33,767 nt of DNA from Acidobacteriota bacterium (GTDB lineage Bacteria; Acidobacteriota; Terriglobia; Acidiferrales; UBA7541), in contig QHZD01000052.1 in assembly GCA_003225315.1 (NCBI GenBank), positions 1 to 33,767 on the forward strand. The letters are read 5' to 3'. The position numbers were made by a program, and so were the translations under genes. This document shows positions 9,077 to 13,596 of this stretch, piece by piece (position 1 is the stretch's first letter; each line of letters opens with the position of its first letter). The notes below the pieces were generated by a model, which was given only the letters and a program-made list of their open reading frames with translations, was not told the DNA's origin and did no database searches.

Positions 9077-10666
9077 GTGGCTACCCAATCTCGCATGTTT
9101 GATGGCGCGCGCCCTGGCGAACTCGTCGAATCCGGCCCGCCACGCATCACTCTCCGCAACGCTTTCGCTCACCCTTTTGATTCCGCCATCGCTGCCGCGC
9201 GCACTTGCTACGCGCCGCGCCTCATCAGCCCCGAAGAAATCACCGACAAGCAGCGCCTCAACATCGGCGCCGCCACGTTCTACAGTGGCCATCACACCGT
9301 CTATCAGCACGCCCATTTCGAATTCGGCCTTGAAAACGTCAGCCGCCAATTCGTCTGGTCTTTTCTCCACGCGCATCCCTTTTACAATTCCGAGCAGCAA
9401 AGCCAGCGCTACGTTCGTCTGGACCGCGCGCAAGCTTATGTTCCGCCCACCTCGCTCTTCTTCGACGAGAAGTCCAAGGAATTCTACGAAGCCGCCATCG
9501 CCCGCGCCTGGAATTACTACCGCGAACTTTCTTCTCTTTTGATCGCCGACGCGCGCGCCATTCTCAATGACATCTGGCACATTGGTCCCATGTCCCACGC
9601 CAAGCGTCTCCAGAAAATCGAACGCTCCGCCGAAAAACGCGCTATCGAAATCGCCCGATATGTCTTGCCTGTCGCCGCTTTCACCACCATGGTCCACACC
9701 ATCTCCGGTATCGTTCTCCATCGCCTCTGGCGCATGAGCGCCGCCTCGGACACGCCCAGCGAAGCCCGCGCCGTCATCGGCGCCATGGTCGCTCACATCA
9801 AGGAAATCGACGCCCAATTTTTTGATCGCTTCGGAACAGAACCGCTCGAAGAATTACCGGAATGGAAGAACACGCAGTTAAATGTGAACGCCGGTGAAGG
9901 TTTTGCCCGCGAATTCGACGCCAAACTCAAGGGCAAAACTTCCCGCCTCGTCGACTACTCCCCCAACGCCGTCCGCGTCATGGCCGAATCTTATCGCGCC
10001 GTCACCGGCCTAACCGAATCTCAGTGCAAAGATCTCGAAGCGATCGACCGCCTTCTGAATCCCGCCCGCAATCTCTATCGCCTCGAAACTCTAAACGTCG
10101 GCGTCCACGCCCCCATCATGCGCGCCCTCCAGCACGCCAATTACACTTTCGCCAAAAAAATCAGCCACACCGCCGACAGCCAGGACCAGCGCCATCGTAT
10201 GGTCCCCGGCTCGCGCCCACTTCTCACTCTCGCCGATACTCGCGAACCCGACTACATCACGCCCATGCTCCTCAAAGCCAATCTCCGCGCCAAGGAAATC
10301 TACGACCGCGCCATGCACGACGCCTGGTCCGCAAAAAACCAGCTTCTTGATCGCGGCGTCTCTCCCGAAATCGCCCTCTATCTTCTTCCTAACGCCAAAT
10401 CCATCCGCCTCTACGAATCCGGCTCGCTCCTCCATCTCATCCACAAATGGACCATGCGCACTTGCTTCAACGCCCAGGAAGAAATCTATCAAGCCTCCAT
10501 GGACGAACTCGCCCAGCTCCGCGAAGTCCACCCCGAGCTCACCCGCTACATCGGTCCGCCCTGCCACATTCGCGCCAGCATCACCACGCCCATCTGCACC
10601 GAAGGCTCCCATTTCTGCGGCATCAAAGTCTGGCTCGACTTCCCCAATATCACCCGCCGTATCTGA
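9077..10666 (+). CDS. thyX: Tandem-domain flavin-dependent thymidylate synthase (ThyX)
   Basis: A 529-aa protein built from two ThyX-like halves; a normal ThyX is about 220-250 aa. ThyX makes dTMP from dUMP using FAD and methylene-tetrahydrofolate. The first half (about 20-270) keeps the QQSQRYVRL end of the ThyX signature (107-115) but has FLHAHPFYN where the RHR motif belongs. The second half (about 290-529) has SQDQRHRMVPGSRP with R372-H373-R374. The active-site elements therefore look shared out between the halves. I use the GTG at 9077; a TACAAT hexamer ends 12 bases before it, so the mRNA may be nearly leaderless. A Met at residue 7 is the alternative. The last 60 bases are duplicated at 12069-12128. 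Confidence 0.88.
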   Translation: MATQSRMFDGARPGELVESGPPRITLRNAFAHPFDSAIAAARTCYAPRLISPEEITDKQRLNIGAATFYSGHHTVYQHAHFEFGLENVSRQFVWSFLHAHPFYNSEQQSQRYVRLDRAQAYVPPTSLFFDEKSKEFYEAAIARAWNYYRELSSLLIADARAILNDIWHIGPMSHAKRLQKIERSAEKRAIEIARYVLPVAAFTTMVHTISGIVLHRLWRMSAASDTPSEARAVIGAMVAHIKEIDAQFFDRFGTEPLEELPEWKNTQLNVNAGEGFAREFDAKLKGKTSRLVDYSPNAVRVMAESYRAVTGLTESQCKDLEAIDRLLNPARNLYRLETLNVGVHAPIMRALQHANYTFAKKISHTADSQDQRHRMVPGSRPLLTLADTREPDYITPMLLKANLRAKEIYDRAMHDAWSAKNQLLDRGVSPEIALYLLPNAKSIRLYESGSLLHLIHKWTMRTCFNAQEEIYQASMDELAQLREVHPELTRYIGPPCHIRASITTPICTEGSHFCGIKVWLDFPNITRRI

Positions 10667-10672
10667 AACGTC
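10613..10672 (+). repeat. 60-bp direct repeat, copy A (3' end of thyX)
   Basis: Covers the last 18 codons of thyX, its stop and six bases beyond. Copy B at 12069-12128 has the same length and differs at four positions by my alignment. The pair encloses a 1.4-kb AT-richer segment. Confidence 0.9.
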
Positions 10673-10719
10673 CTAGCGGTTCCAATCAGAATAGCGATAT
10701 CGGGCCTGGTTTAACGTTT

Positions 10720-10736
10720 GATATTTCCATAATATC
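10720..10736. promoter_or_regulatory. Palindromic operator candidate
   Basis: A perfect 6-base inverted repeat (GATATT, 5-base spacer, AATATC) lies about 80 bases ahead of the membrane-protein gene, in an AT-rich stretch where its promoter is expected. Possible repressor site; HicB from the same segment is one candidate ligand, which is speculation. Confidence 0.3.
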
Positions 10737-10814
10737 TAGGCCTTTTGATTTCTCCATTAGCCAGCATTTCTTCGGGTTATGGTAAGCTCCTGGCAAACTC
10801 GGAATGGTGAAACG

Positions 10815-11600
10815 ATGACAGAAAGAAAACAAAGAGGTGAGCAACCTGGCCAGATTCTAAAAGTACAAGTTCCTGTGACGGCCTCTCTCCTGCTCTTGCT
10901 GGCAGTCACAGCGCTGACCCTCTTGTATGTATTCGAGCAGAATTGGAGACACGAAATTGAATTCTTTGGAATCTCTACTGGCGTAGCGGCTGGCCTTCTC
11001 AGCGCATTTTACGTGGGACAGGCCTTGAAGATCACGATAGAGCAGAGAGACAGAGCTTTGACGGATGACAAAATTGCAAGAGCCTTTTCGTTCGCACTAA
11101 GATGGAACGACCCCAATTTTGCCCAGTTGCGCGCTGATTGGCGCGCAGTACTGGATGAACTAGACGCAAAAACAGATGACGAAATATGTGATTTCATTAG
11201 AGGCGAACACAAAAATAAGACTGTTGTGGCAGACGTTCTAAACTTCTTTGAAGAGATGAGTTATGCCGCGAAGAGTGGGGTTGCAGATACCCTAACGCTG
11301 AGAAATATTTTTCGCAGCATTGGAGTACGTTACTACACGTCTCTATCCCCGTGGATTGATCGCTATCGGAAGGACAAACATCAACCGACGGCGTACGAAC
11401 ACTTTCAATGGCTTACGAACAATGGAAAACGCAATGACTGCGGGCTGCACTACGGATCGCCGATATCCTTGCCCCTCATTTTTCTCCTCCTAGAGCGACT
11501 TGCTTTTAGCTTACCGGAACTTCAAAGTCAACTCAAATCTGCGTGCCTTCGCTGGCCTACTATTAGACGCACGGCTGAAGCCAAAGTAACGGACATCTAA
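10815..11600 (+). CDS. Membrane-anchored protein of unknown function (DUF4760-like)
   Basis: A protein of 261 aa (273 if the ATG at 10779 is used; the ATG at 10815 has GGTGA close upstream). Two hydrophobic segments near the N-terminus (TASLLLLLAVTALTLLYVF and ISTGVAAGLLSAFYVGQAL) should anchor it, leaving a soluble domain of about 190 residues. That domain (RAFSFALRWNDPNFAQLRADW, VLNFFEEMSYAAKSGVAD, IDRYR, YEHFQWL) resembles the DUF4760 group, whose function is unknown; I rate this resemblance as moderate. Codon use is more AT-rich than in flanking genes. It sits inside the segment flanked by thyX-end repeats, which suggests acquired DNA. Confidence 0.75.
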   Translation: MTERKQRGEQPGQILKVQVPVTASLLLLLAVTALTLLYVFEQNWRHEIEFFGISTGVAAGLLSAFYVGQALKITIEQRDRALTDDKIARAFSFALRWNDPNFAQLRADWRAVLDELDAKTDDEICDFIRGEHKNKTVVADVLNFFEEMSYAAKSGVADTLTLRNIFRSIGVRYYTSLSPWIDRYRKDKHQPTAYEHFQWLTNNGKRNDCGLHYGSPISLPLIFLLLERLAFSLPELQSQLKSACLRWPTIRRTAEAKVTDI

Positions 11601-11809
11601 GTCGTTTAGATTCAATGTCTCTTGTGCTCGACGTGTCCGTTTCTTATTTCTTAGAGTACTTTATGGGTGAAAATGACCCAAATTCGTCCACAAAATTGTG
11701 TCACTGCTATCACAAGGATACGCATAGTTCGATTCAATATAAAGGCCGCTAAAAGGGCCCATGCTTTTTAAGTCAACGTGCGCCTTGCGGTCCCTTCGCG
11801 GCTTTCGTG

Positions 11810-12043
11810 CTAGGCCGCTTGGCTCACGTTCGCAGCTTCGATGGAAACAGTGACAGTCTCCGTGGGTTCTTTCTGTTGTTCGATGCGATCAGCGAGGAGG
11901 CGCAGTGCAAGCGCTTGAGCCGACGTCACGGCTTCTTTTTCCGTTGCACCGTAGGTCATTACACCAGGCACGTTCACGATCTCGGCAATCCAGCGCCCGT
12001 CGGCCTCAAGCTCCGTTTCCACCTTGTACACAATATGAGACAT
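11810..12043 (-). CDS. HicB-family antitoxin-like protein (orphan)
   Basis: A 77-aa HicB-like protein. The partial RNase-fold core DGRWIAEIVNVPGVMTYGATEKEA is the family signature, followed by ALALRLLADRIE. HicB proteins normally neutralise the HicA mRNA interferase and bind their own operator. No HicA (about 60-80 aa with a GSH motif) is found on either strand beside it, so this is an orphan copy, either a remnant of a lost pair or a stand-alone regulator. The start ATG at 12043 has AGGA nine bases upstream. The thyX-end repeat copy B begins 25 bases upstream of the start. Confidence 0.85.
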   Translation of the reverse strand: MSHIVYKVETELEADGRWIAEIVNVPGVMTYGATEKEAVTSAQALALRLLADRIEQQKEPTETVTVSIEAANVSQAA

Positions 12044-12068
12044 ACTTCATATCCTATCACGCAGCCGA

Positions 12069-12128
12069 TTCTGCAGCATCAAAGTCTGGCTCGACTTCCC
12101 CAACATCACCCGCCGCATCTGAAACGCC
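12069..12128 (+). repeat. 60-bp direct repeat, copy B (duplicate of thyX 3' end)
   Basis: Matches 10613-10672 over 60 bases with four differences. It would still encode the ThyX C-terminus and its stop (IKVWLDFPNITRRI), with three of the four differences silent or after the stop, but no thyX body precedes it. Confidence 0.9.
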
Positions 12129-12170: not shown

Positions 12171-12839
12171 ATGTTTCGGAGTTTCGCTCGCCCCATCGCC
12201 TCAGTCCTCGCGGTGCTCATGCTCTCGACGCCTTCCTCCTTCGCTTTCGACACGCCTCTCTCCGACCAAGCCGTCCGCGAAGCCTATTTCCTGGGCCAGC
12301 GCCGTGACGAAACCATGGCCGCTTTCCTCAACAAGTATTCAAAGTATTTGGAGGCGCCGAAAACCGGCCCGCACATCACCTCTATCACCTTCTTCACTCC
12401 CTTCGCTCTTCTCGTCCAGCAATCGAGCCAGCACACCTCGGGTTATAGCGCCCAGCAAGCGGCTCTCGATCATCGCGATCAGCCCGAATTCGTAAGAATC
12501 ATCGTGCAGATCCAGCTCACCGATTCCTATGGCGCTTACATCATTCGCCCCACGAGTTCCCGTTCGGGCTCGTCCGCCGGCTTCGTCCCCCGCCCTTATG
12601 ACTTCTGGAAAGACTTCGACGTTCAGGTTTCCAGCAAAGACCAAAACCTTCGGCCGTTCTCTTCTTCCGGTCAACCTGACGTTCTTTGTTCCTATGAAGG
12701 TGGCTGCGAACTCACCGGCGCCACTCTCCAGTTCGATTTCAACGCCGAAGACTTTGCCTCCGGCTCCGCCGTCATTGACGTGATCCCCCCGGAGGGTGAT
12801 CCCCTTTCGGTCGATTTCGATCTCGGCCACCTCCGCTGA
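12171..12839 (+). CDS. Secreted protein of an unrecognised paralogous family, copy 1
   Basis: A 222-aa protein with a signal peptide (MFRSFARPIASVLAVLML, cleavage expected near SSFA-FDTP, residue 25). GGAGG seven bases upstream supports the start. The mature part has conserved blocks shared with the neighbouring copy: DTPLSDQAVREAYFLGQR, KTGPHITSITFFTPFA, YSAQQAALDHR, YDFWKDFDVQVS and the C-terminal VIPPEGDPLSVDFDLGHLR. I do not recognise the family. No membrane anchor, lipobox or catalytic motif is visible; two Cys (LCSYEGGCEL) might form a disulphide. Exported, probably periplasmic; function unknown. The adjacent frameshifted copy indicates tandem duplication. Confidence 0.85.
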   Translation: MFRSFARPIASVLAVLMLSTPSSFAFDTPLSDQAVREAYFLGQRRDETMAAFLNKYSKYLEAPKTGPHITSITFFTPFALLVQQSSQHTSGYSAQQAALDHRDQPEFVRIIVQIQLTDSYGAYIIRPTSSRSGSSAGFVPRPYDFWKDFDVQVSSKDQNLRPFSSSGQPDVLCSYEGGCELTGATLQFDFNAEDFASGSAVIDVIPPEGDPLSVDFDLGHLR

Positions 12840-12941
12840 CCCTTTCTCGACTGCGCCCTTTCACTGCACCCATGCCGAAGACCTCATTGTGCTGTAGCCG
12901 GCCCCCGAATCAGCGTTATACTTCCCTCTAGGAAAGCCTTA

Positions 12942-13596
12942 ATGCGTCACCTCAGTCGCTTCTTCAGTTGCCTGCTTACGGTTTTTTGTGTGTCTCTGCC
13001 TGCCTCTCCCTTAGACACTCCTCTTTCCGACGAAGCCGTCCGCGAAGCTTATTTCCTCGGCCAGCGCCACGACGCGTCCTTCCTGGGCAATTACATCAAA
13101 TTTCTCCCGCGGCCCAAGACCGGCCCGCACATCTCCTCCGTTACTTTTCTCACTCCCTTCGCTCAGCTTGCCCAGATCTCCAGCAATTACGTCGGGAACT
13201 ACAGTGCGCAGCAAGCCCTGCTGGATCAACGCGGCCAGCAGGAGTTCGTCAAGATCACTATCGAAATCTATCTGACCAATATCTTACGGCGCCATGATCC
13301 CTAATCCGCAGAGCCCGCGAACAGCCTCTTCGCCCCCTCTCATCCCGCGTCACTATGATTTCTGGAGAGACTTTCACGTCCAAGTGTCGGACGCTCACCA
13401 GGTTCTTTCGCCCTCCGACATCGGAGGCCGCCCGCTCTATCGTTGCGGCCGCTATGGCCCTTGCCGTCCGAGGGGCGCTGCCATCGATTTGGAGTTTCCC
13501 GTTGGCGCATTCGTCTCCGACTCTGTCACCGTCAAAGTCATTCCCCCCGAAGGCGACCCCGTCTCCGTCGACTTCGATCTCACCCACCTCCGTTAA
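12942..13596 (+). pseudogene. Secreted-family paralogue, copy 2, frameshifted
   Basis: A tandem relative of the preceding gene. The first frame (12942-13304) gives a signal peptide, DTPLSDEAVREAYFLGQR and KTGPHISSVTFLTPFA, then leaves the family pattern after IYLTN and stops. The second frame resumes at about 13282 with YGAMIPNPQ and runs through YDFWRDFHVQVS to VDFDLTHLR. Copy 1 reads TDSYGAY at this point, so one extra base near 13281 (an A between AAT and TCT) explains the break. Repaired, it would encode about 217 aa. Either a recent pseudogene or a sequencing error; the remainder of both frames is well conserved, which fits a fresh event. A GA-rich start signal is weak. Confidence 0.8.

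Follow-up and report, generated by a model that had tools for sequence, protein, structure and literature searches.

The stretch of DNA analysed here (33,767 nucleotides; hereafter the window) is contig C48 (QHZD01000052.1) of a 5.0-Mb genome in 57 contigs (genome label G000), whose host is described as a soil acidobacterium (phylum Acidobacteriota). It encodes thyX for a double-length flavin adenine dinucleotide (FAD)-dependent thymidylate synthase (529 amino acids; positions 9077–10666, plus strand), with two stretches that match PF02511 and a 98% identical orthologue in the closest relative, G013. The end of thyX, including the stop codon and six further bases (near copy; 10613–10672), recurs on the same strand at 12069–12128 (far copy) with 56 of 60 positions identical, and the remains of a HicAB-type toxin-antitoxin operon lie between the two copies; this layout, and its recurrence around toxin-antitoxin operons at other genes, is the subject of the present text. 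The four differences comprise one non-silent change (Gly to Ser), two silent changes, and one past the stop codon. A preliminary description of the window had reported a 60-bp recurrence with four differences behind an intact thyX, and both points hold. When the final 100 bases of thyX, together with the stop codon, were aligned locally with the downstream DNA, the score was 93, versus at most 28 in 20 shuffles, and the pair is one of only seven direct-repeat pairs (45–400 bp, at least 85% identity, within 6 kb) in 1.06 Mb of the window and related loci.

The insert between the two copies (approximately 1.4 kb) is composite, with a 1.1-kb DUF4760 block, a short hicA remnant, hicB on the minus strand, and the second thyX end following one another from left to right. 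The block (10671–11791), delimited by its GC content (46.2%) and by an alignment break, stands in place of most of a hicA of the type found in another relative, G027. It encodes a membrane-type protein of 273 amino acids (10779–11600, plus strand; PF15956, E 4e-20), for which a search of 35 further genomes of the genus gave no match and one of 299 genomes of the class gave three further matches (E 2e-37, 2e-11, and 2e-6); a plasmid or phage origin of DUF4760 was considered and rejected, neither the plasmid nor the phage collection giving a match. The remnant of the hicA 5′ end (11793–11827, minus strand) can be aligned with hicA of G027 until the similarity stops abruptly, which leaves about the first dozen codons as the only alignable part, and the HicAB pair is broken; hicB (11810–12043, minus strand; 77 amino acids) is an orphan in the window because hicA has been lost there. 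This antitoxin-like open reading frame (ORF) has a weak match by itself (UPF0150, E 0.048), and it is identified as hicB because its relative in G027, 90% identical over 71 residues, stands beside hicA. The defence-system models gave only a weak HicA-like match (E 0.025). The hicB part of the insert (11792–12068; 56.0% GC) resembles the whole window (56.4%), and the low GC is therefore confined to the DUF4760 block. Thus, the preliminary description of an AT-richer insert with a membrane protein and an orphan HicB is accurate for both genes and for the composition of the DUF4760 block, but not for that of the hicB part.

In G027, a member of the same genus (thyX 90% identical), thyX is followed by hicA and hicB (both on the minus strand), a second thyX end, and the next gene. 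The insert there is approximately 0.5 kb long and contains only hicA-hicB, the two genes being adjacent and the HicA matching PF07927 (E 3e-12). Positions 11792–12122 of the window align to G027 with 277 identical bases in 334 alignment columns, through hicB and into the second thyX end, such that the junction of hicB with the thyX end is the same in the two genomes; to the left of 11792 there is no above-background alignment of the window to G027. On the basis of this alignment and its limit, we read the repeat-bracketed unit as the hicA-hicB pair, and the DUF4760 block as a separate segment that would have replaced most of hicA in the lineage of the window. The far copies in the two genomes begin at the same short stretch next to the hicB start, and the repeat is 58–60 bp long at thyX; the far copy of G027 is decayed, with 8 of 54 positions different from the near copy, three of them consecutive. 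The single 1.4-kb element envisaged in the preliminary description is therefore not what the repeats enclosed, and nothing supports a link to a larger island, with G027 having the small form. Chance or assembly error is ruled out by the shuffles, by the identical junction in the independent assembly of G027, and by an insert at an HD-domain gene that is common to G000 and G013 (see below); a tRNA integration site is likewise ruled out, with no tRNA found in the window.

The relatives compared are metagenome assemblies of Acidobacteria, many of them labelled gp2 and some Candidatus Acidiferrum. Among 32 thyX loci, the thyX end recurs downstream in only 2, in the window and in G027, and the other 30 have a single end within the DNA at hand, which extends up to 6 kb (7 of the 32 loci have less than 6 kb, the shortest 701 and 895 bases; thyX of G026, cut by a contig edge, is outside the 32). 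In several relatives thyX lies directly before the same next gene, a conserved gene without a Pfam match that is located at 12171–12839 (plus strand) in the window and adjoins thyX at these empty sites. Insertion behind thyX that leaves the gene whole, with empty sites in relatives, is in keeping with these data; the two copies and the intervening genes are far from being conserved throughout, and no relative examined carries a second thyX body or a bare tandem thyX end behind thyX. Across 80 named thyX loci, a second end was found only in that of G027, and 79 have no comparable end (two of these with less than 100 bases downstream); the count takes in the match at L074 (score 74) and excludes five that scored 34–36, for which the shuffle maxima ranged from 25 to 43. 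Further inserts at this point, a possibility raised in the preliminary description, do occur: the gap between thyX and the next conserved gene is at least 1.2 kb in 10 of 30 genomes, compared with 0 of 18 for prfA-prmC (Fisher P 0.005), where the thyX count leaves out G012 (its contig ends 701 bases past thyX) and the control comprises the genomes with both genes in the fetched DNA. Beyond the window and G027, these variable gaps contain no thyX-end repeat; we therefore treat the variable gap and the repeat-bracketed insert as separate observations.

Behind thyX, at positions 12171–13596 of the window, a protein family that is apparently exported is encoded twice in tandem, and a frame change divides the second copy into two ORFs. 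In G030 (contig C115, L061 8397–8543), an ectopic thyX 3′ end of approximately 147 nt is located elsewhere than behind thyX, 0.2 kb before an ORF of 750 amino acids. This ORF has no Pfam match and shares 67% identity with the one that immediately follows thyX in G013; members of this family also lie behind thyX in G032, G018, and G012. On the other side of the ectopic end there are fragments of a tyrosine integrase and of a DNA methylase, both C-terminal; a thyX end seems to have moved along with its neighbour. Two weak matches to an ectopic thyX end, in G025 (E 0.006) and G004 (E 0.018), were left out of the count.

The layout at thyX is repeated elsewhere in the genome of the window. Within 1.18 Mb of this genome (the window and 59 stretches) there are 11 direct-repeat pairs (40–250 bp, approximately 250 bp to 4 kb apart), of which 5, the thyX pair included, are present exactly twice in the sample, the remaining six having 3 to 17 copies. 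One of these pairs, which repeats the 3′ end of an HD-domain gene (128 bp per copy, 88% identity), encloses a DUF433-DUF5615 operon; another, of 127 bp, covers the 5′ end of an ORF of 86 amino acids and encloses an ORF resembling a PBECR2 nuclease toxin. A pentapeptide-repeat ORF without a toxin match lies between 87-bp copies, and the fifth pair (L245) encloses only 249 bp. The HD-domain gene is present in 36 of 36 genus genomes, and a second end of it was identified in 4 of 20 loci searched in the available downstream DNA: G000 and G013 have the same DUF433-DUF5615 operon before the second gene end, G027 has a different DUF433-DUF5615 pair in this position, and G028 has two other ORFs, one of them DUF2255, with no recognised toxin. 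This variety of cargo may have arisen because insertion struck one place several times, or because repeats already present exchanged what lies between them. The last approximately 20 codons of the HD-domain gene (L400–L419) differ by genome group, with G032 having a tail that resembles that of G000 rather than the tails in G018 and G025, which gives the impression of exchanged gene ends. Directly behind the end of this gene, at the start of the insert in G027 (L402 1109–1200), there is a near-palindrome of the form CCGCACCCT-loop-AGGGTGCGG, with partial versions in G000, G013, and G032.

A survey of toxin-antitoxin loci in the class extends the pattern to other genomes. A locus was regarded as bracketed when a direct repeat of 35–600 bp (at least 75% identity, E up to 1e-4) enclosed the match within 1.5-kb flanks. 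By this measure, DUF5615 loci were bracketed in 5 of 30 cases in a first batch and 6 of 40 in a second (11 of 70 in all), compared with 2 of 30 for hicA, 1 of 30 for PIN, 0 of 30 for SnoaL, and 63 of 3000 random windows of 3330 bp. The second DUF5615 batch was taken after the pattern had been seen, and consists of 44 consecutive listed matches minus four, namely three located at the edge of a contig and the one from which the idea of the test came (G000:C39). Against the random rate, the binomial P is 4e-4 for the first batch and 2e-4 for the second, and 11 of 70 against 1 of 60 (PIN and SnoaL together) gives a Fisher P of 0.005; these statistics are only indicative, because the random windows are from other genomes (that of the window, including its own repeat cases, and the 80 named thyX loci, rather than the DUF5615 genomes) and the 30-locus sets are best matches. 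With only 2 of 30 hicA loci bracketed, the claim of enrichment rests on DUF5615.

In 9 of the 14 bracketed toxin-antitoxin loci, the repeats are recognisable gene ends (named from Pfam matches where scanned, and otherwise from reading the sequence) with lengths of 39–137 bp. These include the 3′ ends of thyX, a PD-(D/E)XK nuclease gene, a tRNA thiouridylase gene, a β-lactamase-fold gene, pgsA (137 bp, 98%), and an RDD-family gene, as well as the 5′ ends of a cysteine-synthase-like gene and, in two genomes of one genus, a nucleotidyltransferase-like gene. In G177, a hicA-hicB pair is flanked by two copies, 119 bp long and 91% identical, of the 3′ end of a nuclease gene. The pgsA end is doubled only in G066 among the matches listed for 60 genomes of its genus; no flank-matched empty site was found for this case, and neither the neighbouring gene of G066 nor its toxin-antitoxin pair turned up in the loci of 29 relatives (1.5-kb flanks). 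Two other hicA loci have features of their own. At L168 (G065:C100), a 49-bp direct repeat (84%; 1751–1799 and 2408–2456) begins approximately 40 bp past hicA and encloses most of an ORF of 188 amino acids without a family assignment, and at L153 (5385–5804; G030:C124) a decayed hicB-hicA pair with broken frames, not bracketed by the above measure, lies between genes that by eye are ligD-like and glyoxalase-like.

Based on these observations, we posit, with a probability of roughly 0.6, that a hicA-hicB pair was inserted behind thyX with a long target duplication, and that a DUF4760 segment later replaced most of hicA and thereby orphaned hicB. The hicA-hicB pair would have entered together with a second copy of the last approximately 60 bases of thyX, the target copy thus arriving with the insertion event itself. 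With thyX whole and a thyX end before the next gene, neither neighbour is broken; and since an intact gene, a foreign operon, and a second gene end are the product expected of a single crossover, we propose as the simplest route that DNA in circular or end-joined form, containing the operon and a copy of the gene end, recombined with that end in one crossover, which would require no integrase. In the lineage of the window, the AT-rich segment with the DUF4760 gene would subsequently have taken the place of most of hicA. The same layout at other genes suggests that the insertion of toxin-antitoxin pairs is accompanied by duplication of part of the target gene. An addictive operon might also help to preserve the repeat pair against collapse, in agreement with the stabilisation model for toxin-antitoxin cassettes; the window retains its repeat after losing hicA, and therefore protection by addiction is not required there.

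Several points weigh against insertion with target duplication. At thyX, the closest relative, G013, has neither a second thyX end nor a HicB match, and an ORF of 741 amino acids (lipoprotein-like by eye, no Pfam match) lies behind its thyX; a single insertion in an ancestor would therefore have to be followed by losses. Losses or transfers are part of the history, base differences among the copies do not give their order, and the distances between the thyX-end copies accommodate single and repeated duplication alike. No intermediate or movement was observed, and the comparison is one without flank-matched strains of a single species. In the survey, neither hicA (P 0.13, one of the two bracketed loci being G027 itself) nor PIN (P 0.47) is significantly enriched. 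The counts include some repeats that are weak (37 bp, or 79% identity) and, for DUF5615, two cases that are orthologues of each other; with the orthologous duplicate and three weak repeats removed, DUF5615 stands at 7 of 69, with P 6e-4 against random windows and only 0.048 against 1 of 60. Moreover, 5 of the 14 repeats (L254, L318, L421, L426, and L455) are intergenic, gene-internal, or without a clear gene end, and some bracketed inserts (that of G028, and L203) contain no recognised toxin.

Three other histories would lead to a similar arrangement. Gene ends could serve as reusable landing pads, where cargo between repeat copies is exchanged by homologous recombination and toxin-antitoxin operons are one of several cargoes. 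The three cargoes in four genomes at the HD-domain gene and the different inserts of the window and G027 at thyX are consistent with this, as is the ectopic thyX end of G030, which precedes a relative of the gene directly behind thyX in G013 (a family also present in G032, G018, and G012). The variable thyX inserts beyond the window and G027 lack a second end, however, and exchange and independent insertion look alike in these data; we consider landing pads an unlikely explanation of the thyX locus. A partial tandem duplication, in which thyX or its 3′ end was duplicated first with the following DNA, the second copy largely decayed, and genes (hicA-hicB or others) settled between the ends, would produce the same final order. 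Decay of the far copy in G027 (the 8 of 54 differences, three in a row) and the different cargoes between copies of one HD-gene end fit a pre-existing repeat of this kind; against it, none of the relatives examined preserves a second thyX body or a bare tandem end, and the far copies of both genomes start at the same short stretch by the hicB start, which makes a prior tandem duplication improbable in our judgement.

The least probable of the three, in our estimation, is that the insert is what remains of an integrase-driven element at the thyX 3′ end, the 60-bp copies being attL and attR and the integrase having been lost. An extended direct repeat that restores the gene at its 3′ end would be typical of such an element, and the variable inserts behind thyX in 10 of 30 genomes could be understood in the same way, as could the proximity of the 147-nt thyX end of G030 to a C-terminal integrase fragment and a methylase fragment. 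On the other hand, contig C48 encodes no PF00589 integrase (10 are encoded elsewhere in the genome; for serine recombinases and transposases, the search covered the Pfam-scanned ORFs), and the small form in G027 consists of 0.5 kb with only hicA-hicB. No single integrase explains the same layout at unrelated genes, with repeats of 39 to 137 bp that also involve 5′ ends; the occurrence of this layout at eight or more other genes, some of them at 5′ ends, argues against a thyX-specific integrase site. Thus, of the earlier proposal of integration at the gene end without an integrase, the lack of a PF00589 integrase on the contig is upheld, but a site specific to thyX is disfavoured.

Taking insertion with target duplication further, toxin-antitoxin operons of soil Acidobacteriota might be integrase-free cassettes that carry a host gene end as a homology attachment site, with cassettes swapping at one gene end between species and the addictive cargo protecting the repeats; we put this forward tentatively, as possible but doubtful. 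The toxin families concerned presumably act on RNA rather than on DNA. PIN is described as an RNA nuclease in the accessible part of one source (PMC2701414), and DNA cleavage by the cargo appears, in the accessible part of another, as one of two links to restriction activity discussed for long target duplication (PMC3031569). If toxin-antitoxin operons do form such cassettes, then with toxins that act on RNA the cargo would not have to cut DNA for a long target duplication to arise.

Among known systems, genomic islands integrate at gene 3′ ends via tyrosine recombinases. The insert behind thyX is like these islands in that a gene 3′ end is duplicated and the gene rebuilt, but unlike them in having no PF00589 integrase on the contig, a sub-kilobase unit in G027, and many targets that include 5′ ends. 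For toxin-antitoxin cassettes of superintegrons, a stabilisation model has been advanced, as given in the accessible part of the source (PMC2654758). As far as that account goes, those cassettes share with the present loci an operon between repeats and a possible stabilising role; they differ in that the repeat here is host coding sequence.

How toxin-antitoxin pairs outside known mobile elements enter chromosomes is, to our knowledge, largely open. For restriction-modification genes, long target duplication is said to have been set out in primary papers by Nobusato (2000) and Furuta (2010). Insertion of these genes with long target duplication is described in the accessible parts of three further papers (PMC3874152; PMC1643837; PMC3031569). 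According to those parts, the resemblance lies in a lack of an own mobility gene, an addictive cargo, and flanking direct repeats of approximately 100 bp and variable length, one copy of which is the target. Three features of this mode can be recognised here: direct repeats of variable length flank the unit (58–60 bp at thyX, 39–137 bp in the gene-end cases), the uninserted thyX site has a single copy, across genomes rather than within one species, and the unit has no mobility gene, with only hicA-hicB in the insert of G027. The differences are that the cargo here is of the type II toxin-antitoxin kind (HicAB and DUF433-DUF5615, with a hicB remnant and DUF4760 in the window), that the repeats are gene ends in 9 of 14 loci, several of them 5 to 16% diverged, and that the host belongs to the Acidobacteriota. 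In the accessible parts of the open-licence literature we found no account of long target duplication accompanying the insertion of toxin-antitoxin operons. The recurring signature, in which paired copies of a gene end flank an operon, makes it possible to find such insertions and rank their age by repeat divergence, and to ask whether addiction prevents direct-repeat deletion. Of more value than the thyX case, which is most likely a decayed toxin-antitoxin insertion of this type, is that the layout recurs around DUF433-DUF5615 across the class; the signature would also extend the insertion mode of restriction-modification genes to a second kind of addiction module.

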